DNA of 64,000 bases from an uncultured Roseobacter sp. GTDB taxonomy: Bacteria; Pseudomonadota; Alphaproteobacteria; Rhodobacterales; Rhodobacteraceae. The stretch lies in the NCBI RefSeq assembly GCF_947492555.1, contig NZ_CANLNE010000001.1, forward strand, positions 1,178,001-1,242,000. The letters run 5' to 3'. The position numbers were made by a program, and so were the translations under genes. Positions 11,159 through 45,036 of this stretch are shown piece after piece (position 1 is the first letter of the stretch; each line of letters opens with the position of its first letter). The notes below the pieces were generated by a model. It was not told the origin of the DNA, made no database searches, and saw nothing but the letters and a program-made list of their open reading frames with translations.

Positions 11159-11644
11159 TCACCTTTGATAGATGAAACACCGTCCCGGCACCGCATCCGG
11201 TGGCAAGGCAATCTCCTGCAGGTCATCGAAATACATCCGGTCGCTGGATACCATCAACCCGTCGGGGGCCAGCAGCGGCGCGACAACAGGGGAGAGCTTG
11301 CGCGCGAATGTATCGTTCTTCTCCGCATTGTGCCCCCCCAGATCGGCGTGGATCAGACGCGCGGTTGGACCAAACCGCGCGAGCGCTTGGGGCAGCGTGT
11401 CAAAGACATCGCCCAGAAAAACCTGCGCATCCGGCGGCGTGCTGTCCGGGTGAGAGGCCACCGCCCGTTCGAACACATAGATATCCTGCGCAGGCAGGAT
11501 GCTGCACATGTGATGATACGTCCGCCCATTGCCCAACCCCAACTCGTAAACCGGCCCCGCCATGTGTTGCGTCAACGCGGCGGCGTGGTTCAGGCAGGCG
11601 CGTTGCGACACCATACGGTCGATGAAGAGGTCGAGGCGGCTCAT
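11159..11644 (-). CDS. Small SAM-dependent methyltransferase-like protein (paralogue of 30921-31400)
   Basis: The 161-residue product begins MSRLDLFIDRM and has the SAM-binding motif I PVYELGLGNGRTYHHM, then AHPDSTPPDAQVFLGD, HADLGGHNAEKNDTFARKLS, and a short FIYQR end. It is shorter than most class I methyltransferases and resembles the roughly 160-residue alphaproteobacterial group that I recall as Methyltransf_17. A clear relative with the same length and motif order sits at the end of the glycan operon 19 kb away. AAGGGAGA precedes the chosen ATG. It is divergent from the peptide ABC operon. The substrate is unknown. Confidence 0.7.
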   Translation of the reverse strand: MSRLDLFIDRMVSQRACLNHAAALTQHMAGPVYELGLGNGRTYHHMCSILPAQDIYVFERAVASHPDSTPPDAQVFLGDVFDTLPQALARFGPTARLIHADLGGHNAEKNDTFARKLSPVVAPLLAPDGLMVSSDRMYFDDLQEIALPPDAVPGRCFIYQR

Positions 11645-11816
11645 GAGGTCTCCCTTTGCAGAAATGTCATGTTCAAATGCCTCTTTTCCATCAAAATTGG
11701 TAGTAGAAAGGCACTCAAACATCTGTGTGCTGGACGCGAGGCGGGAAATCGCGTTGACTGACTGAACTGGACGACGGGTTTTAGGGACGAATGCGTAACA
11801 AGGAAGAGACAAGGAC

Positions 11817-13589
11817 GTGGTAACGCCCCTGCTGGATGTGCGCGATCTGAGCATCGGCTTCGGGTCGGCGGATGCGGTTGTGCGCGACGTCAGCTTTCAG
11901 GTGATGCCCGGCGAGACACTGGCGCTTGTGGGCGAAAGCGGGTCTGGCAAGACGATCACCTGCCGGTCCGTTCTGCGCATCCTGCCCCAGGCGGCACAAA
12001 TCCGCAGCGGTGTCATCAACTACAGCGCCGGTGGCAAGACCTGCAACCTGCTGACCGAGTCGCGCCGCACCATGCGCTCGATCCGCGGCAATCAAATCTC
12101 GATGATCTTTCAGGAACCGATGCGGTCGCTATCGCCGCTGCACCGTCTGGGGGATCAGGTCGGCGAAGTGTTGCGGCTGCACCGGGACATGCGCCCCGGC
12201 GAGGCGAAAAAGACGGTTCTGGACACATTCGAACGGGTTGGTTTCCCCGATCCCACGCGGGTCTGGCGCTCCTATCCGTTTGAGATGTCAGGCGGCATGC
12301 GGCAGCGCGCGATGATCGCCATGGCGATGGTGGCCAAGCCGGAACTGCTGATCGCGGATGAACCCACGACGGCGCTGGACGTGACCACGCAAGCGCAGGT
12401 CTTGGGGCTGATCAAGGAGTTGCAGCAGGAAACCGGCATGGCGGTGATCCTGGTCACCCATGATCTGGGTGTGGTGGCCAACATGGCAGAGACCGTTGTG
12501 GTCATGAACAAGGGCCGGGTGATGGAACGCGGCCCGGCGCCTGCCGTGCTGGGATCCCCCGCGCATGGCTACACCAAGAAACTTTTTGCCGCAGCGCCCA
12601 TGATCCCCGAGGTGGCAGCACCCGCCCGGGCGGAAACGAGCGACGATCTCATTCTCGATCTGCGCAATGTCTCGAAGACCTACACCATGCGGGCGGGCGG
12701 CTGGCGCAAACCGGTGACCATAACTGCCTGTCACGAGGTGAACCTTTCACTGCAACGCGGTAAAACGCTGGCCGTTGTGGGGGAGAGCGGGTCCGGCAAA
12801 ACCACCTGTGCGCGGATCGCATTGGGCGCAGAGCTGCCCGACCCCGGTGGCGAGGTCCTGTTCCGCCCGACCAAAGATGCGGATCAGGTGAAAATCAACG
12901 CGATGTCGCAGCTAGAACGTATCCATTTTCAGCGCCAGGCGCAGATGGTGTTCCAGGACCCCTATTCATCGCTGTCGCCGCGTATGCGGGTGCAACAGGC
13001 CCTGACCGAACCCATGGAAATCCACCAGTTGGGCACCCGCGCCGAACGCCGCGAGAAAGCCGCAGAGATGTTGCGCTGGGTCGGACTCGATGCGTCCATG
13101 CTCAGCCGCTATCCGCATGCCTTCTCCGGCGGGCAGCGTCAGCGGCTGTCGATTGCCCGCGCGCTGACGCTCGATCCGGTTCTGCTTGTCTGCGACGAGC
13201 CCACATCGGCGCTGGACGTCTCGGTGCAGGAACAGATTCTCTGCCTGCTTGAGGACATACGCGACCGTGTGGGGCTAAGCTATCTCTTCATCAGTCACGA
13301 TCTGGCGGTGGTCGCCCGTATCGCCGACGAGGTGGCCGTGATGCGCCAGGGCGTGATCGTTGAGCAGGCGCCACCCGACACGCTCTTTTACAACCCGCGC
13401 CATCCCTACACCTGCGCACTGATCGCGGCACAACCCGAGCCGGATGTGAACCGGCCCATCGACCTCGGGCTGGTGTCGCAGGGTGCTGGCAAACCGTCAA
13501 GCTGGCCCGAAGCCTTCCGGTTTGAAGGGGTCGCCGCGCCTGCGTTGACGGAACTGGAACCCGGTCACAAGGTACGCTGCCATGTCTAG
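11817..13589 (+). CDS. Peptide-type ABC transporter, fused double ATP-binding protein
   Basis: The 590-residue protein carries two complete nucleotide-binding domains, as in YejF or fused DppD-DppF proteins. The first half has [43 protein letters not shown] and [11 protein letters not shown]. The second has [36 protein letters not shown] and [11 protein letters not shown]. Translation appears to start at a GTG with AGGAAG upstream. It heads a four-gene operon whose members overlap by 4-8 bases. The likely role is ATP-driven uptake of peptides or similar compounds. Confidence 0.92.
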
Positions 13590-15501
13590 AGCCTTTGCCA
13601 TTCTCCTGCTGACCCTTCTTGCTCTTACTGCGCGGGCGGAACAACCAATCATGGTCGAAAGCAGCTTTTGGCAAAGCGAAGTGAAAAACGGCATCCTGCC
13701 ACCGGTGACCCAGCGCATGCCGACAGAACCGCTTGTCGTTGATCTGGAGGCAAAGGGGCGCAGCTTTGGCGAACATGGCGGCACATTGCGCACGCTGGTG
13801 TCCCGCTCTAAGGACGTGCGTCAGATGGTTGTCTACGGCTACGCCCGTTTGATGGGCTACGACCAGAACTACGAGCTTTACCCCGACATCCTGCGCGATA
13901 TTGAGGTCGAGGAAGGACGCAAGTTCACCCTGCACCTGCGCAAAGGCCATCGCTGGTCCGATGGTCACCCCTTCACCTCCGCCGATTTCGAATACTACTG
14001 GAAACACGTGGCGCTGAACGAGGAGCTCAGCCCCGCGGGCCCGCCGCAAAACCTGATCGTCGATGGGGTGCTGGCGGAGATGAGTTTCCCCGACGCCCAT
14101 ACGGTGGTGATCGAATGGCCCACGCCGAACCCGCAATTCCTCCAGCTTCTGGCCCAGGCCAGCCCGTTTTTCATTTACCGCCCCGCGCATTATCTCAAGC
14201 AGTTTCATGCGGAATTCACCGACGCCAAGACCCTGAGAAGAAAGATCAAAAAGGCGCGGGTGAGGGCCTGGGCCCCGCTGCACAATGACCGCGACAACAT
14301 GTTCAAATTCGATAATCCGGACCTGCCGACACTGCAGCCCTGGATGAATGCCTCCGGCACCAAGTCGAGCCGCCATGTCTTTGTGCGCAACCCCTACTAT
14401 CACCGCGTGGATTCGCGGGGGCTGCAACTGCCCTACATCGACGTGGTGGAGATGACGATCGTCGGCGGCGGATTGATCGCCGCCAAGGCCAATGCTGGCG
14501 AGGTCGATCTGCAGGCACGCGGCCTCGATTTCCCGGATATCTCGATCCTGAAGAAGGGCGAGACGGATGGCGCGGGCTATCGCACATTGCTCTGGGCCAA
14601 TGGGGCGGCGAACCAGATCGCCATCTACCCCAACCTCAATTTCGCCGACCCGGTCTGGCGTGAGGTGATCCGCGATGTGCGCTTCCGCCGGGCGCTGTCG
14701 ATGGGCATCGACCGCCGCATGATCAACCGGGCGCTGTACTTCGGGCTGGCCAAGGAGGGCGGCATGACCGCGCTGGCCAAAAGCCCGTTTTTCGATCCGG
14801 CAAACCTCTTCAAATGGTCGATTTATTATCCGGCCAAATCCAATGCGCTTTTGGATGAGATGGGCCTGACCGAGCGCACGCCTGACGGGATCCGCAAGCT
14901 GCCCGACGGACGCCCGATGGAATTCGTGATCGAGACGGCAGGGGAACGGCAGGAGGTCGAGAACGCTCTCGCCATCGTCACCGACACCTGGCGCGAGATC
15001 GGGATCAAGCTGGTGATGCGCCCGCTGGATCGGGATATTCTGCGCAACCGGGTCTATTCCGGCCTCAGCATGTCCGCGGTCTGGTTCGGTTGGGACAACG
15101 GGCTGCCGCAGACCTATACGCCGCCGGAATACCTCGCGCCGACGCATCAGGAGTTCTTTGCCTGGCCGAAATGGGGCCAATACTACCAGACCGGCGGCGA
15201 GGTCGGCGAGGCGCCGGACATGCCCGCAGCGGAACGGCTGATGCAGCTGAGCTGGGATTGGGACCACACCGAAGACACCGACGCGCGGGCACGCATCTGG
15301 CGAGAGATGCTGGCCATTCACGCGGAAAACCAGTTCGGCATCGGCATTCTGGCCGAAGCCCCGCAACCGATTGTGGTCTCGAACCGGCTGCGCAACGTGC
15401 CCGAACAGGCGAAATGGGCCTGGGACCCCGGCGCTCATTTTGGTATCCACCGGGTGGATGAATTCTATTACGACGAACCGTTCCAGCAGCTCATCCAATG
15501 A
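13582..15501 (+). CDS. Peptide-type ABC transporter substrate-binding protein (SBP_bac_5)
   Basis: This 639-residue protein is the periplasmic receptor of the importer. It begins with a cleavable signal ([19 protein letters not shown], then EQP). The family 5 binding-protein segments LRKGHRWSDGHPFTSADFEY, FVRNPYYHRVDSRG, and VRFRRALSMGIDRRMINRAL are all visible. It is longer than DppA (about 535 residues) and nearer YejA-like proteins. The start overlaps the ATPase gene by eight bases and the stop overlaps the next gene by four. Confidence 0.92.
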   Translation: MSRAFAILLLTLLALTARAEQPIMVESSFWQSEVKNGILPPVTQRMPTEPLVVDLEAKGRSFGEHGGTLRTLVSRSKDVRQMVVYGYARLMGYDQNYELYPDILRDIEVEEGRKFTLHLRKGHRWSDGHPFTSADFEYYWKHVALNEELSPAGPPQNLIVDGVLAEMSFPDAHTVVIEWPTPNPQFLQLLAQASPFFIYRPAHYLKQFHAEFTDAKTLRRKIKKARVRAWAPLHNDRDNMFKFDNPDLPTLQPWMNASGTKSSRHVFVRNPYYHRVDSRGLQLPYIDVVEMTIVGGGLIAAKANAGEVDLQARGLDFPDISILKKGETDGAGYRTLLWANGAANQIAIYPNLNFADPVWREVIRDVRFRRALSMGIDRRMINRALYFGLAKEGGMTALAKSPFFDPANLFKWSIYYPAKSNALLDEMGLTERTPDGIRKLPDGRPMEFVIETAGERQEVENALAIVTDTWREIGIKLVMRPLDRDILRNRVYSGLSMSAVWFGWDNGLPQTYTPPEYLAPTHQEFFAWPKWGQYYQTGGEVGEAPDMPAAERLMQLSWDWDHTEDTDARARIWREMLAIHAENQFGIGILAEAPQPIVVSNRLRNVPEQAKWAWDPGAHFGIHRVDEFYYDEPFQQLIQ

Positions 15502-16526
15502 TGTTTCTGCGCTATGCCATCTATCGGTTCATCACGATGCTGCTCACCCTCTGGGTGGTCTCGATCCTGATCTTCGTGATCATCAACCTGCCCCCCGGTG
15601 ACTATCTCTCCAACCAGATTGCCGAACTGCGCGCCACAGGTCAGGCCGAAGGGGTGGCCAAGGCCGAGTTCCTGCGCACCGAATACGCACTCGACCGTCC
15701 AATCTGGGAGCAATACCTGATCTGGGTCGGCATGGCGCCGGGACCACAGGGCTGGTACGGGCTGATCCAGGGCAATTTCGGCTGGTCTTTCGAGTTCGAC
15801 CGTCCCGTCAGCGAAGTCGTCGGCGACGCGCTCTGGCTGACGGTGCTGGTGAACCTCGCCGCCGTGCTCTTTGTCTATATGGTCGCCCTGCCCCTTGGCG
15901 TGATCGCCGCCGCCAAGTCCGAAACCTGGGTCGATTACACCGCCGCCTTTGTCGGCTATCTTGGGCTGGCCACGCCGAACTTCCTGCTCGCGCTGATGCT
16001 GTTTTACTATGGCAACAAGTATTTCGATCTGCCCATCGGCGGGCTGATGGCGCCCGAATTCGAGGGCGCGCCGATGTCCTGGGAGAAAGTCAGATCCATC
16101 CTCGTGCATCTGATCGTGCCGACCTTCGTGATCGGCACCTCGGGGGCAGCGGCGATGATGCAGCGTCTGCGCGCCAATATGCTCGATGAGTTGTCGAAGC
16201 CCTACGTGGAGACCGCCAAGGCCAAGGGTCTCGGCCCCTCGAAACTGCTGGCCAAATACCCGCTGCGCATGGCTTTCAACCCCTTCGTGGCCGACATTGG
16301 CAATCTGCTGCCCGCGATGGTCTCGGGCTCGGTGCTGGTCTCCGTGGTGTTGGGCCTGCAGACCATCGGTCCCTCGCTGCTCACAGCCCTCAAGTCGCAG
16401 GACCAGTTCCTCGCAGGCTTCGTGCTGATGTTCGTGGCCCTGCTCACGCTGATCGGCACCATGATCTCTGACCTTCTGCTGGTCCTGCTTGATCCGCGCA
16501 TCCGCTACGGGGCGCGCGGCTCATGA
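15498..16526 (+). CDS. Peptide-type ABC transporter permease 1 (DppB/YejB-like)
   Basis: The 342-residue inner-membrane permease starts MMFLRYAIYRFITMLLTLWV, the typical DppB opening, followed by a periplasmic loop and five further helices. The cytoplasmic coupling loop includes LSKPYVETAKAKGLGPSKLL. ATGA overlaps at both ends tie it to the binding protein and second permease. Confidence 0.92.
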   Translation: MMFLRYAIYRFITMLLTLWVVSILIFVIINLPPGDYLSNQIAELRATGQAEGVAKAEFLRTEYALDRPIWEQYLIWVGMAPGPQGWYGLIQGNFGWSFEFDRPVSEVVGDALWLTVLVNLAAVLFVYMVALPLGVIAAAKSETWVDYTAAFVGYLGLATPNFLLALMLFYYGNKYFDLPIGGLMAPEFEGAPMSWEKVRSILVHLIVPTFVIGTSGAAAMMQRLRANMLDELSKPYVETAKAKGLGPSKLLAKYPLRMAFNPFVADIGNLLPAMVSGSVLVSVVLGLQTIGPSLLTALKSQDQFLAGFVLMFVALLTLIGTMISDLLLVLLDPRIRYGARGS

Positions 16527-17677
16527 AGAAACTGCCCGATGGCCGCTATGTGGACGAGGCGCCCTGGTCCGACGACCAGGACCTTTCGGCGCTTGAGCGC
16601 TCAGACATGGACGCGCCAAACTGGGTGCTTGTCTGGCGCAAGTTCAAGCGGCACCGCCTCGGCCTGATCTCAGGCATCTTCCTGCTGCTGAGCTACCTGA
16701 TGCTACCCATCGCAGGCTTCATCGCGCCCTACACGCCGAACGAACGCAGCGCCGAGTATCTCTATGCGCCGCCGCAATCCATCAACTTCTGGCACGAGGG
16801 CGACTTCATCGGGCCCTATGTCTACCCGACCACGGCGACCGCCGATCTGGTCAACTACCGCTGGACCTACGAGACCGACACGACGCGGCCAATGCCGCTG
16901 CAGTTCTTCTGCGAAGGCGATCGCTACAACCTTTTTGGGTTCATCCCGTCTGATACCCATCTCTTCTGCGCCCCCGAAGGCGCCACCGTCTTTCTCTGGG
17001 GCTCCGACCGGCTGGGCCGCGATGTGTTCAGCCGCATTCTCTACGGCGCGCAACTGTCGCTGACTGTGGGCCTGATCGGCATCACGGTTTCCTTTGCTTT
17101 GGGCATCTTCTTTGGCTCCATCGCCGGGTACTTCGGCGGCAAGACCGACTGGATCATCAACCGCGCCATTGAAATCCTACGCTCGCTGCCGGAACTGCCG
17201 CTCTGGCTCGCCCTTTCCGCTGCTGTGCCCTCGAATTGGGGGCCGGTCGCCGTCTTCTTCATCATCTCGATCATCCTCGGTATCCTTGACTGGCCGGGGC
17301 TCGCGCGGGCTGTTCGAAGTAAATTCCTCTCGCTGAGAGAGGAGGAATATGTCCGCGCTGCTGAGATGATGGGGGCCAAGCCGGGCCGGGTGATCCGGCG
17401 CCACCTGCTGCCCAACTTCATGTCGCACCTCATCGCCTCAGCGACGCTGTCGATCCCCGCCATGATCCTCGGCGAGACCGCACTCAGCTTTCTTGGCCTT
17501 GGTCTCCGCGCACCGGCGGTCAGCTGGGGCGTGATGCTGAACGATGCCCAGAACCTCGCCTCCATCGAAATCTACCCTTGGACGGCGATCCCGATGCTGC
17601 CGATCATCTTTGTGGTGCTGGCGTTCAACTTTCTTGGCGACGGGCTGCGCGCCTCGCTCGATCCTTACAAAAGCTGA
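16523..17677 (+). CDS. Peptide-type ABC transporter permease 2 (DppC/YejE-like) with large periplasmic insert
   Basis: The 384-residue permease is longer than DppC (about 300). After the first helix (about residues 48-72) comes a periplasmic insert of roughly 100 residues containing two cysteines (FFCEGD and LFCAPEG), then the core helices from LSLTVGLIGITVSF onward. The coupling loop LREEEYVRAAEMMGAKPGRV and ETALSFLGLGLRAPAVSWG are standard. A similar insert is found in YejE-type permeases. It is the last gene of the operon. Confidence 0.9.
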   Translation: MKKLPDGRYVDEAPWSDDQDLSALERSDMDAPNWVLVWRKFKRHRLGLISGIFLLLSYLMLPIAGFIAPYTPNERSAEYLYAPPQSINFWHEGDFIGPYVYPTTATADLVNYRWTYETDTTRPMPLQFFCEGDRYNLFGFIPSDTHLFCAPEGATVFLWGSDRLGRDVFSRILYGAQLSLTVGLIGITVSFALGIFFGSIAGYFGGKTDWIINRAIEILRSLPELPLWLALSAAVPSNWGPVAVFFIISIILGILDWPGLARAVRSKFLSLREEEYVRAAEMMGAKPGRVIRRHLLPNFMSHLIASATLSIPAMILGETALSFLGLGLRAPAVSWGVMLNDAQNLASIEIYPWTAIPMLPIIFVVLAFNFLGDGLRASLDPYKS

Positions 17678-22271: not shown

Positions 22272-24626
22272 CTACCTGTCGTCCCCGCCGTCGTCGCCAT
22301 CAAGCAGCTCTTCTTCGATCTGCGCCTGCGCTGCTGCGGTGACGGCCTTCTTGTCTTCCTCAGAGAGCTCTTCGACCTTGCCGTCGGCCAGACGCACTGT
22401 CACTTCCTTATGTGCGAACTTGACCCCCTCACGCTCGAAGAGCGCGCGGATTTCTTCGTAGACCTTCTTGCGCACCAACCACTGGTCGCCCGGCTTGGTC
22501 ATGAATTTCACGCGGATGATCATCGCGGAATCCTGCATCTCGATCACGCCCTGCGATTTCAGCGGCTGGATGAAATTCTCACCGATCACCGGATCGTCCA
22601 GCAATTCAACACCCAGTTTCTTGATCAGCTTGCGCACCTTCTCCACATCTGTGTCATAGGTCACACGCAGCGGCAGTTTCATGATCACCCAGTCGCGCGA
22701 ATAGTTGGTCATCACCTGTATTTCACCAAAGGGAATGGTGTGCAGCGCGCCCAGGTGATGGCGCAGCTGGAAGGACCGCACAGAGATCTTTTCCACCGTG
22801 CCCTTCACCCCGCCGATGTCGAGGTATTCGCCCTTGCGGAAGGCATCGTCGAACAGGAAGAACCCGCCCGAGAAGATATCCCGCACCAGCGCCTGAGAGC
22901 CAAAACCAACGGCGACGCCCACCACACCGGCCCCCGCAAAGAGCGGGCCGACATTGACGCCCATTTCCAGCAGGATGATCAGCCCAATGGTCACCAGAAC
23001 AACAATCAGGATGAAATTGCGAAAGAGGGGCAGCAATGTCGCCAACCGGCTGGCACCTGTGCCACCGCCATCGCCGCCCAGGTCCTCCTCGCTCACATCA
23101 CCCTGCTCCTCAAGGATCTTGTTGTCGATCCAGATGCGGAACGCGTGATAGACAATGTACCCGATGAAGATGATCACCATGATGTCGAGCAGCTGCGTCG
23201 CGGCGCTCTCGACCATCTCGGCGGAATTGTTGTCCCAGATGTAGAAGAACGCGTAGACACCCGCGACAAAGGCCAGAATACCCGCGACCCGTCGCGCCAA
23301 CGCCTCGAAGGAGCTCAGTGCGTGGCGCGGGCGCAGTTGGCGCGCTTCCTCCGCCAGTTCCGCGGTCTCCTCAGGCGTCAGATTGTCTTCTGCCTGCGCC
23401 TCGTTCAACTCCCGCAGGGCGCGGGCGCGCTGAAAACTGCGCTCAATCATGTAGTTGATGACGCCGTAGACCACGATGATCGACATCAGGATCATATACG
23501 CCCCGCCGATCAGCGGGATCGACGAGGGGTTGCCCAGCACCAGATCATAGGTCAGTTCGAACCACGCGAAGATCACGTAGAAGACCACCACAGGTGCCCA
23601 GATCGTGGTGAGCAGTTTGATGGTCCAGCTCAACTCGCCCACCGGTGTGCCGTTGCGCATGGCCTTGGAAATGGCCTGGCGGTTGACCAGGACCATGAGG
23701 ATGTTGAGCAGCACGACCACCGCCGACATCACCGAGGACAGGAAGGCGTAAACGTCGTAGTTCAGCCCCAGCTCACCGATCCAGACGCCGAAGAGGATCG
23801 CGGTGACATCCACCGTCGCCAGCACCCACAGCCAGAAATAGAGGCGCTTGGCATCCCGGGTGGACATCACCGGAATGCGGTATTGCTCCAGGTAGGGCGA
23901 CAGGACCATACGCCAGAGGTTCGCCACCAGACGACAGACAAAGTACCCGGTGTTGATCACGCTGACGGTGAACTGCATCGCCTTGTCTTCGAGCGGGCCA
24001 AAGATGAGCGCGCCAAGGATATAGGCGACCAGCATGGAGATAAGAATGCCTATCACGCCCATGAAAAAGCGGAAAACGAGGAAGGGCATCTTTTCCGAAT
24101 ACCCCACCGGCTTTTCACGAATGCGGGAGACCACGAAGTTCTTCACGATCCGCTTGCCATAGACCTGGCTTTCAAACACCATCCCGATGGCGAACAGCAA
24201 AAGAGAGACCAGCAACGCCTTGGTAAAGGCCCAGATCGTGCCATCCGGGCTGGTGGCGCGCAGGATATAGAGCACTTCGTTAAAGGCATTCGGCAGGTCG
24301 AGCACCCGCTCTACCAGTGCTGCGCGGAAATCAACAAGCGCATCCTGCGCTTTCATCAGGTTGGAGCCCTCGGAGCTTTCGGCATCCGGCACCGCCTCAG
24401 GTGTGGGTGTTGTCAGGACCTGCCCATCGCTGTCTATGACCACCACGCCGACCCCATTCTCGGCTGCCTGCTTCATGATTTCCGATATCTGGTCGCCGCT
24501 TTCGGCAGCCGCGTCAGAACCGCCGCTGAACAAGGATCCGACACCCTGCGCATGCAGCGGAGCGATAAAGAGCACTGTTGCCAGCAAAAAACAGCAAACC
24601 AAGGACAGGAAATCTGAAACGCGCAT
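22272..24626 (-). CDS. Large MscS-family mechanosensitive ion channel
   Basis: The 784-residue protein is a long MscS-type channel that would release solutes under membrane tension. It begins with a signal-like hydrophobic segment ending LFIAPLHAQG, has a periplasmic part, roughly ten helices, and the conserved MscS core near residues 580-650 (GVVGVAVGFGSQALVRDIFS, GGFFLFDDAFRKGEYLDIGG). The cytoplasmic vestibule follows, with an acidic tail LLDGDDGGDDR. The ATG at 24626 was preferred to a GTG at 24695 because it directly precedes the signal-like segment, although no strong ribosome binding site is seen. It is divergent from the glycan operon. Confidence 0.88.
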   Translation of the reverse strand: MRVSDFLSLVCCFLLATVLFIAPLHAQGVGSLFSGGSDAAAESGDQISEIMKQAAENGVGVVVIDSDGQVLTTPTPEAVPDAESSEGSNLMKAQDALVDFRAALVERVLDLPNAFNEVLYILRATSPDGTIWAFTKALLVSLLLFAIGMVFESQVYGKRIVKNFVVSRIREKPVGYSEKMPFLVFRFFMGVIGILISMLVAYILGALIFGPLEDKAMQFTVSVINTGYFVCRLVANLWRMVLSPYLEQYRIPVMSTRDAKRLYFWLWVLATVDVTAILFGVWIGELGLNYDVYAFLSSVMSAVVVLLNILMVLVNRQAISKAMRNGTPVGELSWTIKLLTTIWAPVVVFYVIFAWFELTYDLVLGNPSSIPLIGGAYMILMSIIVVYGVINYMIERSFQRARALRELNEAQAEDNLTPEETAELAEEARQLRPRHALSSFEALARRVAGILAFVAGVYAFFYIWDNNSAEMVESAATQLLDIMVIIFIGYIVYHAFRIWIDNKILEEQGDVSEEDLGGDGGGTGASRLATLLPLFRNFILIVVLVTIGLIILLEMGVNVGPLFAGAGVVGVAVGFGSQALVRDIFSGGFFLFDDAFRKGEYLDIGGVKGTVEKISVRSFQLRHHLGALHTIPFGEIQVMTNYSRDWVIMKLPLRVTYDTDVEKVRKLIKKLGVELLDDPVIGENFIQPLKSQGVIEMQDSAMIIRVKFMTKPGDQWLVRKKVYEEIRALFEREGVKFAHKEVTVRLADGKVEELSEEDKKAVTAAAQAQIEEELLDGDDGGDDR

Positions 24627-24903
24627 AAAAACGGCCCGAAACGTTAACAATTGGGAATGAACGGTAGGGGAGGCGAAGGACCATTGCAATTGCACATCAT
24701 CGCAAACTCTGGCGATCAGTCGTGTTTTGCACCTGAATAACTTTTATGCCAAAGAGGGAAAGACCGTGGGCAACGCCCCAGCAAAGACGCAAGGACTGGC
24801 CGATGCGGCTGACACTCCCTCTGTTCACCGCGGCCGGTGACACGCAGGCACCCACCCTTCTAAACGGCGCGCTGATGTGGCGTGTTCCGCAAGGGTGCGC
24901 CAC

Positions 24904-26136
24904 ATGAATGTCCTGAACGCCATGGGTACGGGTGACGACTCCGCGCCCAAGCCTGAAGGTGCGGAGCAGGAGCCCCCCCAACGGGTGATGCTCTACAGTC
25001 ACGACACCTTTGGCCTCGGCCATCTGCGGCGATCGCGCGCGTTGGCCTCTGCCCTTACCGCCTATAACCCCAATGCCTCCGCCATCATCCTCACGGGATC
25101 ACCCGTTGCCGGACGCTTTACCTTTCCCGAGAAGGTCGACCACGTGCGCCTGCCCGGCGTCACAAAACTGCCTGATGGCACATATATCAGCCAGACGCTC
25201 GGGCTGGACATCGACCAGACCACCAGCCTGCGGTCCGGGCTGATCCAGACGGCGGTGGAGCAATACGAGCCCGACCTGCTGATCGTCGATAAGGAACCCA
25301 CAGGGTTTCGCGGCGAGCTGCTGCCCACCCTTGAATGGCTGTCTGATCGCGGAACAACGCGCTGCGTGCTTGGGCTGCGTGACGTATTGGATGAACCCAC
25401 GGTTCTGGCCGCGGAATGGGAGCGCAAAGGAGCGACGATCGCAACGGAGCGGTTCTATGACCAGATCTGGGTCTACGGCCCCCGCTCCATCTACGACCCG
25501 ACGCAAGGCTTGCCCCTATCGCAGGAAACCCGCGCGCGGATTCATTGGACCGGGTACCTGCGCCGCGAGGTCACGGATGTCGCTGAAACGCCGGATACGC
25601 CCTACGTGCTGATCACCCCAGGTGGTGGCGGTGACGGACAGGCGATGGTTGATCTGGTTCTGGAAGCCTACGAGCTTGATCCAACTCTGCGACCCAATGC
25701 CGTGCTTGTGTACGGGCCATTTCTGTCCGGTGAAACCCGCGAAGGCTTCGAAGCGCGGGTCGCCAAACTTGACGGTCGCGTGACCGCCGTCGGCTTTGAA
25801 TCGCGTATCGAGTCGCTTTTCGCCGGGGCCGAGGGTGTCGTCTGCATGGGCGGGTACAACACCTTCTGCGAGGTGTTGTCCTTTGACAAACGCGCAGTCA
25901 TCGTGCCGCGTACCATTCCCCGTCTGGAACAGTGGATCCGCGCATCGCGCGCCGAGGAGCTGGGTCTTGTGCGCATGTTGGACGAGGACCGGGACGGCAT
26001 GACCCCGCAAACGATGGTCGATTTCATCCGCGCGTTGCCAACGCAGAAGAAACCGTCACAAGCCGGGGCCAATGGATTGTTGGACGGGCTGGATGTGGTC
26101 GTGGCCCGCGCAGCCGCTCTGATGGCCGAGAAATGA
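24904..26136 (+). CDS. GT-B glycosyltransferase, MurG-like (first gene of the glycan operon)
   Basis: The 410-residue protein resembles the predicted glycosyltransferase group COG4671. It has the N-terminal SHDTFGLGHLRRSRALASAL, a glycine-rich ITPGGGGDGQAM turn at mid-length, and a C-terminal nucleotide-sugar site CMGGYNTFCEVLSFDKRAV like the GGxxT...E region of MurG. Translation probably starts at the ATG at 24904, with AAGGG upstream. Its stop overlaps the next start (ATGA). Neither donor nor acceptor can be deduced. It leads seven genes joined by overlaps of 4-11 bases. Confidence 0.85.
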   Translation: MNVLNAMGTGDDSAPKPEGAEQEPPQRVMLYSHDTFGLGHLRRSRALASALTAYNPNASAIILTGSPVAGRFTFPEKVDHVRLPGVTKLPDGTYISQTLGLDIDQTTSLRSGLIQTAVEQYEPDLLIVDKEPTGFRGELLPTLEWLSDRGTTRCVLGLRDVLDEPTVLAAEWERKGATIATERFYDQIWVYGPRSIYDPTQGLPLSQETRARIHWTGYLRREVTDVAETPDTPYVLITPGGGGDGQAMVDLVLEAYELDPTLRPNAVLVYGPFLSGETREGFEARVAKLDGRVTAVGFESRIESLFAGAEGVVCMGGYNTFCEVLSFDKRAVIVPRTIPRLEQWIRASRAEELGLVRMLDEDRDGMTPQTMVDFIRALPTQKKPSQAGANGLLDGLDVVVARAAALMAEK

Positions 26137-27380
26137 CACCAAGGCGGGGCCGGTTGGCGGTAGTGTTAAAAGGGTGGCCACGGCTGTCTGAAACCTTCAT
26201 TGCACAGGAGCTTGTGGCGCTCGAAGAAGCCGGGATCGACTTCGAGATCTGGTCGCTGCGACACCCTACAGACCCCAAGACACATCCACTGCATGACCGG
26301 TTGCGCGCCCGGGTGCACTACCTGCCGGAATACCTCAAGGACGAACCGCTGCGGGTTTTGCGCGGTGTTCTGAGCGCGTTGCACCGTCCGGGGTTTGCGG
26401 CTGCATGGCGGGTCTTCCGCGCAGATTATGCTCGTGACCGGACACCAAACCGCCTGCGCCGCTTTGGACAAGCCTGCGTTCTCGCACGGGAACTGCCGCC
26501 GGGCAGCCTGGGCCTCTACGCGCACTTCCTGCACACCCCCTCTTCGGTTGCACGCTACACGGCCATCCTGCGCGGGCTGCCCTGGTCCTTTTCGGCACAT
26601 GCCAAGGACATCTGGACCTCGCCGGAATGGGAACTCCGCGAAAAGCTGCACCCCGACAGTCATGGGGCCACCTTCGGGGCGACCTGCACCGGGTTTGGCG
26701 CAGCGCATCTGCAATCCCTGGCAGATCGGCCCGACCGGGTAGATCTGGTCTACCACGGGCTTGATCTGGCGCGGTTCCCGGCACCGCCTGAACGGGACAT
26801 GCGGAACCCAATGGCACCCTTGCATCTGATGTCCGTTGGTCGGCTGGTTGAAAAGAAGGGTTTTGACCGCCTGATCGAGGCCTTGGCGCTCCTGCCCCAC
26901 ACCATCGACTGGCATTGGACCCATATCGGCGGCGGCGCGCTGGGAAAAGACCTGAAGGTCATGGCGCAGGCCAAGGGCGTGGCCGAGAGGATCACGTGGC
27001 GCGGCCCTTGCGACCAACCCGAAGTGATCGAGACGATGCGTGCTGCCGATCTCTTTGTCCTGCCAAGCCGGGTTGCCGAGGATGGCGACCGCGACGGCCT
27101 GCCCAATGTGCTGATGGAGGCCGCCAGCCAGAAGCTTGCCATCCTTTCCACGCCGGTTTCGGCCATTCCGGAATTCATCGACACCGGCGTGCATGGCGTG
27201 CTGAGCGATGATGCCCCCGCCAGCCTTTCCCACGCCATCGAAACACTTGCAAACGATCCCGCCGCCGCGGCGCATATGGCGGATGCCGCCTACACCCGTC
27301 TGATCACGGAGTTCCGCATGGCCCCGGGGATCACACAACTGTCCCGCCGCCTGCGCGCGATGATGGGGCCAACGAAATGA
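26133..27380 (+). CDS. Glycosyltransferase family 4 protein
   Basis: The 415-residue GT-B enzyme opens with LAVVLKGWPRLSETFIAQEL, typical of GT4 exopolysaccharide enzymes. It contains FSAHAKDIWTSPEW, MSVGRLVEKKGFDRLIEALA and the donor-site region EDGDRDGLPNVLMEA, which carries the two acidic residues of the EX7E motif. The start was set by the ATGA overlap with the preceding gene. A retaining sugar transfer in the cytoplasm is the family expectation. Confidence 0.88.
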   Translation: MTPRRGRLAVVLKGWPRLSETFIAQELVALEEAGIDFEIWSLRHPTDPKTHPLHDRLRARVHYLPEYLKDEPLRVLRGVLSALHRPGFAAAWRVFRADYARDRTPNRLRRFGQACVLARELPPGSLGLYAHFLHTPSSVARYTAILRGLPWSFSAHAKDIWTSPEWELREKLHPDSHGATFGATCTGFGAAHLQSLADRPDRVDLVYHGLDLARFPAPPERDMRNPMAPLHLMSVGRLVEKKGFDRLIEALALLPHTIDWHWTHIGGGALGKDLKVMAQAKGVAERITWRGPCDQPEVIETMRAADLFVLPSRVAEDGDRDGLPNVLMEAASQKLAILSTPVSAIPEFIDTGVHGVLSDDAPASLSHAIETLANDPAAAAHMADAAYTRLITEFRMAPGITQLSRRLRAMMGPTK

Positions 27381-28450
27381 GCACGGTCGCCTTCTATGCC
27401 CCGATGAAGCCGCCGTTTCATCCGGTGCCCTCTGGGGACAGGACCATGGCGCGCGCGCTTCTCATGGCACTGGATCACGGGGGGCTTTCTTGGGAACTGG
27501 TTTCGACCCTGCAGACCCGCGACAAGGCCGGAGACACGGATGTTCAGGCGCGGCTTTTTGCACAGGCAGAGGTGGAAATCGCCCGCCTGATCACGCAAGG
27601 ACGGTATGCCAACTGGCGCATCTGGGTCACCTACCACAGCTATTACAAGGTTCCCGATTTGCTGGGCCCCACCGTCGCGGCAGCCCTGAACATTCCTTAT
27701 TTCCAGATCGAGGCCACGCGCGCGCGCAAGAGGCTGAAGGGTCCATGGGCAGCCTTCGCGCAGGCGGCAGAGGCTGCGAGCGACGCGGCGCACGCCATTT
27801 TTCACCTGACCCACCGCGATGGGGAATCCTTGCTGGCCTATGCGCCCCAGAAGCAGAAGATCATCCATCTGCGTCCTTTTCTGGCCCGAACCGAATTGCC
27901 GCCACTGGGCCCGCGAAACGGTTCGATGCTAAGTGTCGGGATGCTGCGCCACGGGGACAAGTTCGCGTCCTATCAACTGATTGCAGACGCGCTGCATGTG
28001 CTGAAAACACCAGACTGGAAACTTGTTGTCGCCGGGGACGGGCCAGCGCTCGATGCGGTTGCCTCAATGATGCACCCCTTTGGGGCGCGGGTCGAGTTGC
28101 GTGGGTCATTGGATCAGGCATCGTTGCAGGACGTTTATGCCTCCTCAAGCCTGCTGTTCTGGCCCGGCGTGAACGAAGCCTTCGGCATGACCTTTCTGGA
28201 AGCGCAGGCCGCCGGCTTACCCGTCGTGGCGCAGCGTCGCCCGGGCGTCTGTGATGTGCTTGCACCGGACAGCTACCCCGCCCCCGAAGACGGTCCCGAA
28301 GCGCTCGCCACGAAAATCGACGCGCTGCTGAGCGATGAATGCGCGCGCCTCACTGCTGGCGATCGCGCCAGGGACTACACAGGCGAACATCACTTGCTGC
28401 CAACGGCCAGCCGTACCCTCTGCGACGCGATTGCGGAGGCGGTGGCATGA
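27377..28450 (+). CDS. Glycosyltransferase family 4 protein
   Basis: The 357-residue product has a GT-B layout with a short, divergent N-terminal domain (FYAPMKPPFHPVPSGDRTMA) and a clear GT4 C-terminal domain: VGMLRHGDKFASYQLIADAL, LVVAGDGPALDAV and the EX7E region NEAFGMTFLEAQAAGLPVVA. It overlaps both neighbours by four bases. The N-terminal half differs strongly from the preceding GT4 gene, so the two are not a recent duplication. Confidence 0.85.
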   Translation: MSTVAFYAPMKPPFHPVPSGDRTMARALLMALDHGGLSWELVSTLQTRDKAGDTDVQARLFAQAEVEIARLITQGRYANWRIWVTYHSYYKVPDLLGPTVAAALNIPYFQIEATRARKRLKGPWAAFAQAAEAASDAAHAIFHLTHRDGESLLAYAPQKQKIIHLRPFLARTELPPLGPRNGSMLSVGMLRHGDKFASYQLIADALHVLKTPDWKLVVAGDGPALDAVASMMHPFGARVELRGSLDQASLQDVYASSSLLFWPGVNEAFGMTFLEAQAAGLPVVAQRRPGVCDVLAPDSYPAPEDGPEALATKIDALLSDECARLTAGDRARDYTGEHHLLPTASRTLCDAIAEAVA

Positions 28451-29031
28451 TCCAACTGGCTCTCTTGCGCCACGGGCGCACATCATGGAACCGCGCCGGG
28501 CGTATTCAGGGCCGCACGGATATCGCACTTGATGCGGAGGCCGAGGCAGACCTGGCCGCCCTGACCCTTCCCGCCCCGTGGCTGTCGGCCGACCTCTGGT
28601 CCAGCCCACTGATCCGCGCGCGGCACACAGCCGAATTGCTTGCTGGCAGAGCGCCCCGAACAGACCCGGCACTGACGGAAATGGACTGGGGCGAATGGGA
28701 AGGTCTGAAAGGTATCGATCTGCGTGCGGACCCGGACAGCGGATACCGCGACATCGAGGACTGGGGCTGGGCGTACCGCCCGCCGGGCGGAGAGAGCCCT
28801 GCGGATTTGCGCGCGCGCCTGCGACCATGGATCGACGGGTTGCAACGAGACAGTCTCGCCGTTTGCCACATCGGGATCATGCGCGTGCTCATGGCGCAGG
28901 CGACGGGATGGGATTTCGACGGCCCCGCTCCGTTCCAGATCAAGCGCAACCGGCTCTACATCCTCACGATTGAAGGCGGAGACTGGCACGCGGCACCTAC
29001 CCCTGTCAGGCTGGAGGTACGCCAGACATGA
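28447..29031 (+). CDS. Histidine phosphatase family protein
   Basis: The 194-residue protein carries the phosphoglycerate-mutase-like signature LLRHGRTSWNRAGRIQGRTD, with the nucleophilic histidine at residue 9, plus SSPLIRARHTAELL, EMDWGEWEG and the second catalytic histidine in CHIGIMRVL. The family dephosphorylates varied small molecules. Inside a glycosyltransferase operon it may remove phosphate from a sugar or glycan intermediate; that is inference. The start comes from the ATGA overlap. Confidence 0.88.
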   Translation: MIQLALLRHGRTSWNRAGRIQGRTDIALDAEAEADLAALTLPAPWLSADLWSSPLIRARHTAELLAGRAPRTDPALTEMDWGEWEGLKGIDLRADPDSGYRDIEDWGWAYRPPGGESPADLRARLRPWIDGLQRDSLAVCHIGIMRVLMAQATGWDFDGPAPFQIKRNRLYILTIEGGDWHAAPTPVRLEVRQT

Positions 29032-30173
29032 AGGTTGTGATCCTCGTGACGCATCTGCTGGGCACCGGACATCTTGCGCGGGCACTGACGCTCGCGCGTG
29101 CGTTTTCGATGGCGGGGCATGAGGCGACCGTCCTGTCAGGCGGCATGCCGGCGCAGCAACTTGATAGTGCCGGCATCCGGCTCGTGCAACTGCCCCCCCT
29201 GCAGTCTGATGGCGTAAATTTCACCAGATTGCTTGATGCCGATGGGGGTGAGGCCCGCGAAGATCTGATGCAGAGGCGCGCAACGCGCCTGCGCGACACC
29301 CTCCAATCCATTGCACCGGATGTGGTGATCACAGAGCTTTTCCCCTTTGGCAGGCGTGTGTTGCGCACGGAGTTTCTGGGAGCTGTGGAGACAGCCATTT
29401 CACTACCGCGGCGACCGCTGATCTGTGCCTCCGTGCGGGATATCCTTGCGCCGCCCTCCAAACCGGCCAAGGCCGCAATGACGGAGGATACCATCACCCG
29501 CTTCTATGATGCGGTTCTTGTGCATTCCGATGCCGATGTGACTCCGCTGGAGGTCAGTTGGCCTGTCACAAAAACGCTGGCCCCGTATCTTCATTACACA
29601 GGATTTGTCGCCCCCCCGCCCGCGCCACCGCATCCGGATGGAGCAGGCACAGGCGAAGTCCTGGTCAGCGCCGGTGGTGGGAACGTAGGCAGCAATGTCT
29701 TTGACGCCGCACTGCAAGCGGCACAACAGGATTCAGGCCGACGCTGGCGACTGCTGATCGGGGGCAACACGGCCGCTGACCGAATTGTCGCACTCCGCCA
29801 GGATGCACCGCCGAACGCCATGCTCGAACCTGCACGTCCGGATTTCCGGCAGATGCTACACCATGCAGCAGTCTCCGTTTCCATGGCCGGATACAACACC
29901 GCGCTTGACCTGCTGCAAACACAAACGCCCGCCGTGCTGGTGCCCTTCGATGCCGGTGACGAGACCGAACAGAGCCTGCGCGCCGCGGCTCTTGAGCGCC
30001 TGCCTGGCATAGAGGTGCTGACCAGCGCTGCGCTCAACGGTCAGATGCTTTTGGAACGGGTACAACAGGCGATCAGCGCGCCACAGCGCGCGGCACGTGC
30101 CACAGGCCTCGACGGTGCGCAAAATTCGGTACGCATCGTGCAAGAACTGGCGAACAAACACCATGCAGGTTGA
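29028..30173 (+). CDS. GT-B glycosyltransferase, MurG-like (second copy type)
   Basis: The 381-residue protein is a distant relative of the first operon gene. It has VTHLLGTGHLARALTLARAF at the N-terminus, VLVSAGGGNVGSNVFD at mid-length, and the C-terminal donor-site stretch VSMAGYNTALDLLQTQTPAV. The shared GLGH/GTGH and GGYNT/AGYNT motifs suggest two members of one family working in the same pathway. It overlaps the upstream gene by four bases and the downstream gene by eleven. Confidence 0.82.
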   Translation: MKVVILVTHLLGTGHLARALTLARAFSMAGHEATVLSGGMPAQQLDSAGIRLVQLPPLQSDGVNFTRLLDADGGEAREDLMQRRATRLRDTLQSIAPDVVITELFPFGRRVLRTEFLGAVETAISLPRRPLICASVRDILAPPSKPAKAAMTEDTITRFYDAVLVHSDADVTPLEVSWPVTKTLAPYLHYTGFVAPPPAPPHPDGAGTGEVLVSAGGGNVGSNVFDAALQAAQQDSGRRWRLLIGGNTAADRIVALRQDAPPNAMLEPARPDFRQMLHHAAVSVSMAGYNTALDLLQTQTPAVLVPFDAGDETEQSLRAAALERLPGIEVLTSAALNGQMLLERVQQAISAPQRAARATGLDGAQNSVRIVQELANKHHAG

Positions 30174-30924
30174 CTGGTCCCCCCTGCGCGCGGAACTGGC
30201 GCTGTGGCGCGCCGAGAACAGGGTCCTGCCCATCTGGTGGCGGGACGATGACGCCGTCGACACGACACCTGCGCTTGATGAGCTGTCTCAGCTGGCAACG
30301 GACCTCGACATGCCGGTCCATCTGGCCGTTATCCCGGCCTTCGCGCAACAGGCCTTAGCGGACTGCATAACCCAACAGCCTCTTCTGGTACCCACTGTGC
30401 ATGGTTGGGCCCATGAGAACCGCGCACCAGAAGGCCAGAAGAAAGCCGAGTTTGGGCAGGTTTATGCGCATACCTCCGAACAACTGACGCACGGGCTGTC
30501 CCGCCTGAGGGACCTCTTTGGCGAGCGCCTTGTGCCTGCCCTCGTTGCACCGTGGAATCGGCTGCATCCCGATGTATTGCCGCTGCTTTTGCAGGCCTCT
30601 TACAAGGTGGTTTCCACCTTCACGCCGCGCGTGAATCAATATCCGGTTCCGGGGCTGCTTCAGGTCAACACTCACATTGATCCGATTAACTGGCGCGGCA
30701 CCCGCGATCTGGTCAGCCCTGACAACATCATTGCCCAAACTGTTCAGCACCTAGAGGCCCGGAGGCAAGGCGCGGAAGATGCGACAGAACCCCTCGGATA
30801 CCTTACCCATCACCTTGTCCACACGCCGGACATCTGGTCCTTTTCCCGGGTCTTTCTCAGCGAATTGCTGGCGGGCGGCGCGGTAAGCAAACCCTTGACC
30901 CAATCCCTGAAGGAGGCACCATGA
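30163..30924 (+). CDS. Polysaccharide deacetylase-like protein
   Basis: The 253-residue protein looks like a divergent NodB-fold (CE4) deacetylase. It has IWWRDDDAVDTTPALDELSQ with the usual aspartate pair, LAVIPAF, the metal-binding-type HGWAHENRAPEGQKKAEF and LVAPWNRLHPD. No signal peptide is seen, so it would act in the cytoplasm, which is unusual for polysaccharide deacetylases and fits action on a lipid- or nucleotide-linked intermediate. The start at 30163 overlaps the upstream stop by eleven bases. Confidence 0.8.
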   Translation: MQVDWSPLRAELALWRAENRVLPIWWRDDDAVDTTPALDELSQLATDLDMPVHLAVIPAFAQQALADCITQQPLLVPTVHGWAHENRAPEGQKKAEFGQVYAHTSEQLTHGLSRLRDLFGERLVPALVAPWNRLHPDVLPLLLQASYKVVSTFTPRVNQYPVPGLLQVNTHIDPINWRGTRDLVSPDNIIAQTVQHLEARRQGAEDATEPLGYLTHHLVHTPDIWSFSRVFLSELLAGGAVSKPLTQSLKEAP

Positions 30925-31400
30925 GCCGGCTGGAATCCATGCGCCGCAGACTTTCTGCGCAGATCGACGGGCTCGATTGGGCCGCGTCCCAGATTGCCCA
31001 AGTTGACGGGGATGTGCTCGAATTGGGTCTTGGGAACGGGCGCACCTATGATCACCTGCGCGAACGCCTGCCGGACCGCCGGATTTGGGTGATCGACCGG
31101 GTTTTGCAACCTCACCCGTCCTGCATTCCGCCCGCAGATTGCTTTGTGATGGGCGAAGCAGAAGATGCGTTGACCCGTCTCGCCGACGCGACCACCAAGA
31201 TCGCTCTTGCCCACTACGATTTTGGTCATGGGGTCAAGGAAAAAGACGTAGAGGAAGGCGCGCGCCTGTCGCCGTTCATCGCGCCATTGATGGTGCCCGG
31301 CGGGCTGATCGTTAGCCAACAACCGCTCACCGGGTTCGAGCAGATTACCGGACCGGACACCATTGATCCGGACCGCTATCTCTTTTACCGCGCGGCCTGA
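30921..31400 (+). CDS. Small SAM-dependent methyltransferase-like protein (last gene of the glycan operon)
   Basis: The 159-residue protein has SAM motif I VLELGLGNGRTYDHLRERLP, then HPSCIPPADCFVMGEAED, LAHYDFGHGVKEKDVEEGAR, and the end DRYLFYRAA. It parallels the product of 11159-11644 in length and motif order. It overlaps the deacetylase gene by four bases. It could methylate the sugar product or a lipid carrier, but nothing in the sequence defines the substrate. Confidence 0.72.
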   Translation: MSRLESMRRRLSAQIDGLDWAASQIAQVDGDVLELGLGNGRTYDHLRERLPDRRIWVIDRVLQPHPSCIPPADCFVMGEAEDALTRLADATTKIALAHYDFGHGVKEKDVEEGARLSPFIAPLMVPGGLIVSQQPLTGFEQITGPDTIDPDRYLFYRAA

Positions 31401-31464: not shown

Positions 31465-31584
31465 ATGCTAAGAATTATTGCTGCAATCACGGTTTTGACA
31501 GCCCTCGCCGCTTGCGAGACCACAAAGGGCGTAGGCCGCGACGTAGAAGACGCCGGTGAGGCAATTCAGGATGCGGCGACCTAA
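31465..31584 (+). CDS. Entericidin A/B family lipopeptide (copy 1)
   Basis: A 39-residue lipoprotein is encoded: MLRIIAAITVLTALAAC forms a signal with an LAAC lipobox, and the mature part CETTKGVGRDVEDAGEAIQD is the entericidin signature. In other bacteria entericidins are small outer-envelope lipoproteins linked to stress or stationary phase. AAGGAAGGA lies just upstream. A perfect terminator follows 25 bases after the stop, so this is a single-gene unit. Confidence 0.9.
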   Translation: MLRIIAAITVLTALAACETTKGVGRDVEDAGEAIQDAAT

Positions 31585-31702: not shown

Positions 31703-31819
31703 ATGATCAGACTCGCCTTTGCTCTTGCCGCCATTCTCGCCTTGACGGCCTGTGAAACCACCAAAGGCATAGGCCGCGACGTGACCAACGCGGGTCAGGC
31801 GCTCGACGACGCCATCTGA
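31703..31819 (+). CDS. Entericidin A/B family lipopeptide (copy 2)
   Basis: A second entericidin of 38 residues: MIRLAFALAAILALTAC is a signal with LTAC lipobox, followed by CETTKGIGRDVTNAGQALDD. It is highly similar to copy 1 in the mature part. AAGGA lies about eight bases upstream. The terminator between the copies implies separate control of the two genes; no EcfG-type match is seen before this one. Confidence 0.88.
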   Translation: MIRLAFALAAILALTACETTKGIGRDVTNAGQALDDAI

Positions 31820-43771: not shown

Positions 43772-45036
43772 GTTTCTGATATCCGTTCGATGTTTGCACC
43801 CACGCCGGAGAGCTTGGCCACCACATGCTCATACCCCCGATCAAGGTGGTAGACGCGGCCAACCCGGGTTTCACCTTCAGCGGCCAGCCCCGCCAGAATG
43901 AGCGATACCGAAGCGCGCAGATCGGTCGCCATCACAGGCGCGCCCTTGAGCTTTTCCACGCCCGTGACAGTTGCCGTACCGCCGTGCACCTCGATGTCCG
44001 CACCCATGCGCATCAACTCCGGTGCGTGCATGAACCGGTTTTCAAATATCTTTTCTTCCAGAACCGATGTGCCCTTGGCCGTGCAGAGGAGTGCCATCAT
44101 CTGCGCCTGCAGATCGGTGGGAAACCCGGGGAAAGGCTCTGTCGTAACGTCAACGGCGTAAATGCCCTCCCCGCGCCTCTTGACGGACAGGCCGCCTTTT
44201 GTTTCGGTCACGTCGATCCCGGCAGCGTCGAGTTTTTCGCAAAACGCCTCGACAAGGTTGAGCCGGCCACCCAAAAGCTCCACTTCGCCGCCACAGATTG
44301 CCGGAGCCAGCATGTAGGTACCCAGTTCGATCCGGTCCGTGACCACGGTATGTGTCGCCCCGCCCAGCCGATCGACCCCTTCGATGGTGATGATGGACGT
44401 GCCTTCTCCCGCAATGCGCGCGCCCATCGCGCGCAAACACTGAGCCAGATCAACGATTTCCGGCTCCCGTGCGGCATTGTTGATCACGGTTGTACCCTTG
44501 GCCAGTGTCGCCGCCATCAGCGCGTTCTCGGTGGCGCCAACGGAGGCGAATTCGAAGTCAACTGTACCGCCTTTCAAGCCCTTGGCCGCCTTGGCGTGCA
44601 CGTACCCGTCTTTCAGTTCAAGCTCCGCCCCCATCGCCTCAAGCGCCTTGAGGTGCAGATCGACCGGCCGCGCCCCGATGGCACAGCCGCCGGGCAGCGA
44701 CACGACCGCATGGCCCATACGCGCCAGCATAGGCCCCAACACCAGGATGGAGGCGCGCATCTTGCGCACGATATCGTAATGCGCGGTGTGGTTGTTGATG
44801 TCGTGGCTGGAGAGGGCGATCACCTGCCCGCCCTGCAAGGAAGTGACCTCTGCCCCCAAAGATTGCAAGAGCTGCGTCATCGTTTGGATATCACTGAGAC
44901 GCGGCGCATTGATTAGGGTCAGTGGCTCTTCGGTCAGTAGGGTCGCGGGCATCAGGGTGAGGCAAGCGTTTTTTGCCCCTGCAATGGGGATTTGCCCGCT
45001 CAACGGGCCGCCGCCTTTAACAAGAATGGAGTCCAT
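43768..45036 (-). CDS. murA: UDP-N-acetylglucosamine 1-carboxyvinyltransferase
   Basis: MurA transfers enolpyruvate from PEP to UDP-GlcNAc, the first committed step of peptidoglycan synthesis. The 422-residue protein begins [20 protein letters not shown], then [11 protein letters not shown]. It has the catalytic-loop cysteine C118 in [17 protein letters not shown], which is the fosfomycin target in sensitive enzymes. [14 protein letters not shown] and the C-terminal [10 protein letters not shown] are also present. The start at 45036 was chosen because the longer frame adds no homologous sequence. Confidence 0.97.

Follow-up and report, generated by a model that had tools for sequence, protein, structure and literature searches.

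Sugars borne by lipids can be modified before they cross the cytoplasmic membrane, as by ArnD of the undecaprenyl-phosphate-L-Ara4N branch, a NodB-fold enzyme that acts on a lipid-linked sugar at the cytosolic face before flipping, and ATP-binding cassette (ABC) exporters of the MsbA, HepA and PglK types move lipids and glycolipids. SbmA/BacA transporters have no nucleotide-binding domain (NBD). According to one report, the ABC-exporter-type membrane domain of these proteins (SLiPT) is energised by the proton gradient and not by ATP (PMC13316013). Two further systems are the msbA2 operon of Sinorhizobium meliloti (SMb21188-SMb21191), in which glycosyltransferases (GTs) stand beside an MsbA-type exporter and an unknown polysaccharide is concerned (PMC3687685), and the muropeptide importer YejBEF-YepA of Rhizobiales and Rhodobacterales (PMC9790009). 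Here we analyzed a window of 64,000 nucleotides from an uncultured Roseobacter sp. (assembly GCF_947492555.1, contig NZ_CANLNE010000001.1, positions 1,178,001 to 1,242,000), in which seven genes (g1 to g7, window positions 24904-31400) form an operon of glycan enzymes, and found it to be the Roseobacter-clade part of a larger alphaproteobacterial cluster that co-occurs nearly one-to-one with an ABC-exporter-like protein whose NBD is altered.

Structural matches of g6 include ArnD (8t0j), but that match is general to the CE4 fold and wider, four GTs are present here, and the listed matches of the operon's remaining six genes include no Arn model. The exporter-like partner has the transmembrane domain and the overall fold of MsbA, HepA and PglK, from which it differs in the lack of a canonical Walker A motif (46 of 46 copies), an altered Walker B, extra Q-loop-like repeats and a domain binding cyclic nucleotide monophosphates (cNMP). 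With SbmA/BacA the likeness concerns only a possible way of working, a large, altered NBD being retained in the partner. The msbA2 operon likewise places GTs next to an MsbA-type exporter; it was rejected as the same locus because it lies at ~938 kb of pSymB, whereas the homolog is found at 824-845 kb. The importer of the cluster belongs to the family of YejBEF-YepA, whose A. tumefaciens operon (Atu0187-0190) is, in contrast, described without GT genes in the part of the source available (PMC9790009). The initial annotation knew of no described pathway with this gene set, and none turned up in the literature searched, in which most subscription papers and all supplements were out of reach. If the pathway proposed below is right, it would add a cell-envelope glycan, its enzymes and a testable exporter; on the more specific proposal made below, the P-loop would be altered in a new way, since most lineages have both Mg2+ ligands (the Walker A Ser/Thr and the Walker B Asp) replaced together, and the system would offer a way to ask how the ABC-exporter fold works or is regulated with a rebuilt nucleotide site and a cyclic-nucleotide sensor.

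The exporter-like partner and the larger cluster

An even sample of the class, comprising 385 genomes, was examined for the two parts with profiles of g5 (E <= 1e-20) and of the exporter (E <= 1e-100). The g5 profile matched 132 genomes and the exporter profile 129; about a third of the sampled class (125), from marine Roseobacter-group members to Sinorhizobium and Rhizobium, carried both, seven g5 only, four the exporter only and 249 neither, an association for which Fisher's test, which ignores shared ancestry, gives p 1e-86. Three of the seven genomes with g5 only had weak matches (G104, G326, G338), and the other four are 68-93% complete. The control family PF00142 was matched in 36 of the 385 genomes; the exporter is present in 16 of these (odds ratio 1.67, p 0.19), the power of this control being lower since PF00142 is the rarer of the two. 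The window's own genome holds two PF00142 matches 26 kb apart (G000:C5:17347-18135 and 43807-44589), probably bchL and bchX of a photosynthesis cluster.

In the 124 genomes that have both parts with positions listed (best listed match per genome; G296, whose weak match of 1.8e-31 had no listed place for g5, was left out), g5 and the exporter lie within 15 kb in 81 (median 5.7 kb), further apart on the same contig in 11 and on different contigs in 32. As the assemblies are fragmented, 81 probably understates the number of linked pairs. Both parts are also retained, though far apart, in some single-contig assemblies (for example G188, G335 and G413), which is expected of parts needing each other.

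For gene order, 40 distant loci, one to four per family, were hand-picked from the 132 g5-positive genomes, with the exporter list also in view; L215, which belongs to the window's family, was dropped and 39 were counted. A gene was called at a profile match of at least 100 bits, and a gene may in some cases have been missed because of a contig end or the 20 kb limit. The initial annotation had allowed for an order peculiar to this genome, but g1 to g6 keep their order in 38 of the 39 distant loci, L188 being the exception. All 39 have g3, g4 and g5; the ATPase gene yejF of a Yej-type importer was called in 38, g2 in 37, g6 in 35, a PH-domain protein in 34, the exporter in 33, g1, YejA and the cNMP-binding protein in 32 each and Methyltransf_17 in 22, and the six core genes occur together in 30. 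The exporter gene stands upstream of g1, in divergent orientation at 32 of the 33 distant loci that show it, and is followed by a small cNMP-binding protein and often by a Methyltransf_17 gene; the PH-domain protein and the Yej-type importer are usually 3' of g6, and the MscS-type channel that neighbours the window's operon is not adjacent. A stand-alone seven-gene system was rejected, as the partners are found in trans. The absence of an exporter remarked on in the initial annotation thus holds for the operon itself but not for the system, whose exporter neighbours the operon in most distant loci and lies elsewhere, in two copies, in this genome.

Among 59 genomes, its own included, g6 is present in 25, with all 18 same-genus relatives among them; 17 of these 18 carry the seven genes and MscS on one contig in the same order, and in the 18th (G001) the operon is interrupted by contig ends. 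The best 80 of 571 loci from a scan of the collection are nearly all Rhodobacteraceae by name (Roseobacter, Sulfitobacter, Ruegeria including R. pomeroyi, Phaeobacter, Leisingera, Shimia, Amylibacter and others). One record titled Nocardioides marinus (L115) contains a Roseobacter-group operon, 61% to g5, and is probably a mislabelled or contaminated assembly. A tblastn search of the plasmid collection with a distant g5 returned 255 records, mostly Rhizobium (141) and Sinorhizobium (80), and a reduced set was read on pSymB of S. meliloti 2011 (824-845 kb) and on one R. leguminosarum and one S. medicae plasmid. This Rhizobiaceae set comprises the cyclase, Yej, g1, g2, g5, exporter and cNMP genes, and in S. 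meliloti the stretch read ends within a g6-like gene ~13 kb from it. With three of the four GTs in the Rhizobiaceae version, the number of sugars, put at about four in the initial annotation, probably varies. A S. meliloti strain without pSymB has been used (PMC12239276), and therefore the set is probably dispensable in this species, unless it has moved.

The window's genome has two exporter paralogs, both on other contigs (G000:C2:555107-557662 and G000:C3:790341-792896). The membrane domain is that of a type IV ABC exporter (PF00664, 71-81 bits in three copies), and the predicted structure (mean pLDDT 79.7, pTM 0.63) has the fold of TmrAB, PCAT1 and MsbA. MsbA is the best NCBIfam match of both scanned copies, far below its cut-off (145.6 and 213.6 of 602 bits), with HepA second for one of them (P0001). 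Nucleotide sites were compared in 46 copies, 36 from outside the window's family and 10 from inside, and the canonical Walker A motif (GxxGxGK[S/T]) was found in none. Among the outside copies, 34 of 36 carry D or E at the Ser/Thr position of Walker A; at the Walker B Asp position, 30 have N or S and three retain Asp, and 29 show the two replacements jointly. Of these 36 copies, 18 retain the Walker A Lys (14 have Arg instead), 20 the Walker B Glu and 13 the H-loop His, and a QRQ signature is retained in many copies of other lineages; since Lys, Glu and His are partly retained, these sites are altered, not erased. In the ten copies of the window's family, the Walker A Lys and the Walker B Glu are missing throughout and the Walker B Asp is present in nine. 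The C3 paralog had no Pfam match to ABC_tran at E 0.01, and two further Q-loop-like repeats were recognised by eye in the NBD. Directly 3' of the C2 paralog (L086, 12200-13108) lies a gene for a 302-residue putative membrane protein, by eye similar to CAAX-type (CPBP) proteases.

Both exporter copies of the window's genome are fused to a cNMP-binding domain, and so, judging from the alignments, seem the others of the window's family apart from L091, in which the domain is a neighbouring gene; in most distant loci it is a separate gene adjoining the exporter. Of 52 cluster loci, 14 have a class III nucleotidyl cyclase (beside the cNMP gene at L188); such a cyclase was also found in one of 10 exporter loci (L093 of G023, directly beside the exporter) and, at >220 bits, in four of 19 extended flanks, with two weaker matches of 144 and 122 bits. 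None occurs in the window or in most of the DNA fetched, and the cyclase is unsupported as a fixed member of the cluster.

Enzymes of the operon

The genes g1 to g7 lie on the + strand and overlap successively by 4, 4, 4, 4, 11 and 4 bases, which confirms the fully overlapping, same-strand operon of the initial annotation, and the four GTs, the histidine phosphatase and the methyltransferase it had recognised are recovered by Pfam families (Table 1). Some rows in part of the alignments of this study include translated DNA upstream of the start codon. Conservation was read from rows among which the window's protein is counted twice: at least 95% conservation was observed at 31 positions of g1 (53 rows) and at E267/E275 of g3 (49 rows), presumably its EX7E motif, and also conserved are D321/E329 of g2, which we take to be part of a GT4 EX7E-like motif, and R8, H9, R57, E78 and H141 of g4. 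The closest solved sequences to g5 by profile are CalG4, MurG and YjiC. Of the two GT28-like proteins, g5 does not reach the cut-off of the curated MurG model (31.1 of 250.25 bits) and g1 had no match to it in the curated-model scan. By hydropathy, all seven proteins lack a membrane helix (highest 19-residue window at most 1.36), and the probable deacetylase described earlier as cytoplasmic and without a signal is rightly so called, as far as hydropathy shows.

Its NodB fold was likewise upheld, despite the lack of any match to the Pfam NodB domain (PF01522) in g6 at E 0.1, the PF01522 matches of the genome being other genes; below threshold, g6 matched DUF2334 (E 0.009) and one further family (E 0.064). 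The AlphaFold2 model (mean pLDDT 92.6) superposes on two putative deacetylases, 3qbu (Z 18.6, 3.1 Å, 220 aligned) and 3rxz (Z 18.4), and on ArnD (8t0j, Z 15.9), and the predicted fold is clearly NodB/CE4. At least 95% of the 47 rows aligned share residues D28-D30, H80, H84, P130-N132, D173, H216 and H217; these residues presumably correspond to the metal-binding Asp and two His of CE4 enzymes and to the later His motif. In G011 (L048, 7073-7826), one of the 17 same-genus genomes with the complete gene order, g6 is split over two frames by a frameshift or a sequencing error.

Proposed pathway and alternative explanations

What is both new and firm is that the operon co-occurs with the exporter and that the NBD of the latter is altered; around these findings and the gene set, its order and its conserved active sites we infer a chemistry, a cargo and a role for the Yej importer. 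The favoured reading, to which we give a probability of about 0.53, is the cytosolic assembly of a short membrane-linked glycan, its dephosphorylation and de-N-acylation, and then its transfer by a pseudo-ABC exporter. The seven genes would supply the enzymes that act in the cytosol in a glycan pathway conserved among Alphaproteobacteria. The products of g1, g2, g3 and g5 would transfer sugars one after another onto a membrane carrier or lipid at the inner leaflet, g4 would remove a phosphate from an intermediate, g6 would de-N-acylate an amino sugar on the inner leaflet before flipping, as ArnD does, and g7 may methylate the product or a partner. A membrane link is suggested since most characterised GT28 enzymes, such as MurG and the diglyceride glycosyltransferases, act on membrane lipids, since ArnD offers a precedent, and since the families nearest to the exporter move lipids and glycolipids. 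The short modified glycan processed in the cytoplasm that had been predicted from the sequence is compatible with four GTs, a signal-less deacetylase fold and conserved active sites. The exporter-like protein would pass the glycolipid across the membrane; its nucleotide sites look unfit for ordinary ATP hydrolysis, it would probably be gated by cAMP or cGMP, and it may be driven by altered nucleotide binding or by a proton gradient as in SbmA, or be passive with the cNMP domain as a switch. In the weakest step, peptides or wall fragments connected with this process may be taken back up by the Yej importer. The more specific proposal, that an undescribed glycolipid of a widespread alphaproteobacterial pathway has as its flippase an ABC-fold protein which is switched by cyclic nucleotides through a fused or partner cNMP domain and is not run on ordinary ATP hydrolysis, is tentative, and on the whole we would expect it to fail.

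Several points weigh against this pathway. Enzymes other than deacetylases have the fold of g6 (PuuE allantoinase, Z 17.9; GH57 enzymes, ~15), which thus does not fix its reaction. The solved sequences closest to g5, MurG among them, are mostly natural-product enzymes (GT1-type) with soluble acceptors; its acceptor may therefore not be a lipid and a soluble product is possible, and none of the seven proteins has a membrane helix by hydropathy. As for the exporter, the Lys, Glu and QRQ kept in other lineages may leave room for some ATP use, the degenerate copies of the window's genome may have lost transport itself, and the nucleotidyl cyclase is present at a minority of loci. To these may be added the absence of g3 and g4 from the Rhizobiaceae plasmid loci, in the stretch read, and the shared ancestry that Fisher's test leaves out of account.

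The leading alternative, still an improbable one, is that the operon makes a soluble, small modified saccharide, by the logic of mycothiol, bacillithiol or aminoglycosides, which the exporter-like protein exports or whose export it regulates. The succession of a GT4, a phosphatase and a deacetylase is that of mycothiol synthesis, and the soluble acceptors of g5's relatives and the lack of membrane helices would suit such a product. The MshA and BshA models do match g2 and g3, but far below their cut-offs (at best 45.7 of 462.5 and 39.1 of 273.7 bits), and mycothiol or bacillithiol synthesis was set aside for this reason; moreover, MshB and BshB have another fold than the NodB fold of g6, and the family nearest to the exporter is MsbA. 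Less probable again is that the operon contributes a repeat unit or a cap to a surface polysaccharide or lipopolysaccharide whose polymerase and export are supplied from another locus. Likeness of g2 to the EpsE and WcaL GT4s, although below the cut-offs, would agree with it, as would the nucleotide-sugar dehydrogenase beside the cluster in the Rhizobiaceae loci read and the polysaccharide lyase in Sinorhizobium. Against it stand the MsbA-like protein as the sole recurrent exporter and the absence of any polymerase or Wzx-type flippase among the seven genes, the distant loci not having been searched with those profiles.

Osmolyte synthesis, in which the GTs and the phosphatase would produce a compatible solute that leaves the cell through the divergent MscS channel, is very improbable. 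Pairs of a GT and a phosphatase do make solutes such as glucosylglycerate, and MscS is divergent from the operon throughout the genus, as the initial annotation had seen in the window; however, it occurs in five of 50 annotated loci (window included), every one from the window's family, whereas the widespread partners are the exporter and Yej, and four GTs plus a deacetylase seem more than a simple solute would need. The osmolyte pathway was set aside because MscS was found within the window's family only, and the channel is probably outside the glycan machinery.

Neighbouring genes

The Yej cluster precedes the operon by 7 kb in the window, and the second Methyltransf_17 gene (MT17b) is divergent from that cluster. 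The YejF-like protein misses the curated cut-off, yet this model is its top match; its relatives lie close 3' of g6 in distant loci, and those of MT17b adjoin the exporter in many of them.

Table 1. Features of the operon and its surroundings (window positions).
Feature	Position	Strand	Assignment	Profile evidence
MT17b	11159-11725 (start approximate)	-	second Methyltransf_17 protein	PF12692, 229.1 bits
YejF-like	11817-13589	+	double ATPase, peptide importer	NF011713, 532.6 bits (cut-off 834)
YejA/YepA-like	13582-15501	+	solute-binding protein	PF00496, 171.3 bits
YejB-like	15498-16526	+	permease	oligopeptide permease models, below cut-off
YejE-like	16523-17677	+	permease	PF00528, 113.9 bits
MscS-type channel	22272-24695	-	divergent neighbour of the operon, conserved in the genus	
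g1	24904-26136	+	GT28-like (MurG/MJ1255-type) glycosyltransferase	PF04101 C-domain, 23.0 bits (cut-off 22)
g2	26133-27380	+	GT4 glycosyltransferase	PF00534, 91 bits
g3	27377-28450	+	GT4 glycosyltransferase	PF13692, 70.5 bits
g4	28447-29031	+	histidine phosphatase (branch 1)	PF00300, 136 bits
g5	29028-30173	+	second GT28-like (MurG-like) glycosyltransferase	PF04101 C-domain, 35.4 bits
g6	30163-30924	+	cytosolic NodB/CE4-fold protein, probable deacetylase (model)	
g7	30921-31400	+	Methyltransf_17 S-adenosylmethionine methyltransferase	PF12692, 236.8 bits

A reduced cluster of g4 to g7 and a Methyltransf_17 gene, divergent from a Yej cluster, was found in G021 (L047, 6332-13643), with no g1 to g3 in the stretch and no exporter match at E 1e-100; it is an intermediate linking the window's operon with the window's Yej cluster. 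Just 3' of the operon, two tandem genes of 38-39 codons on the + strand (31465-31584 and 31703-31819) share an ACETTKG motif and presumably encode entericidin-like small lipoproteins.

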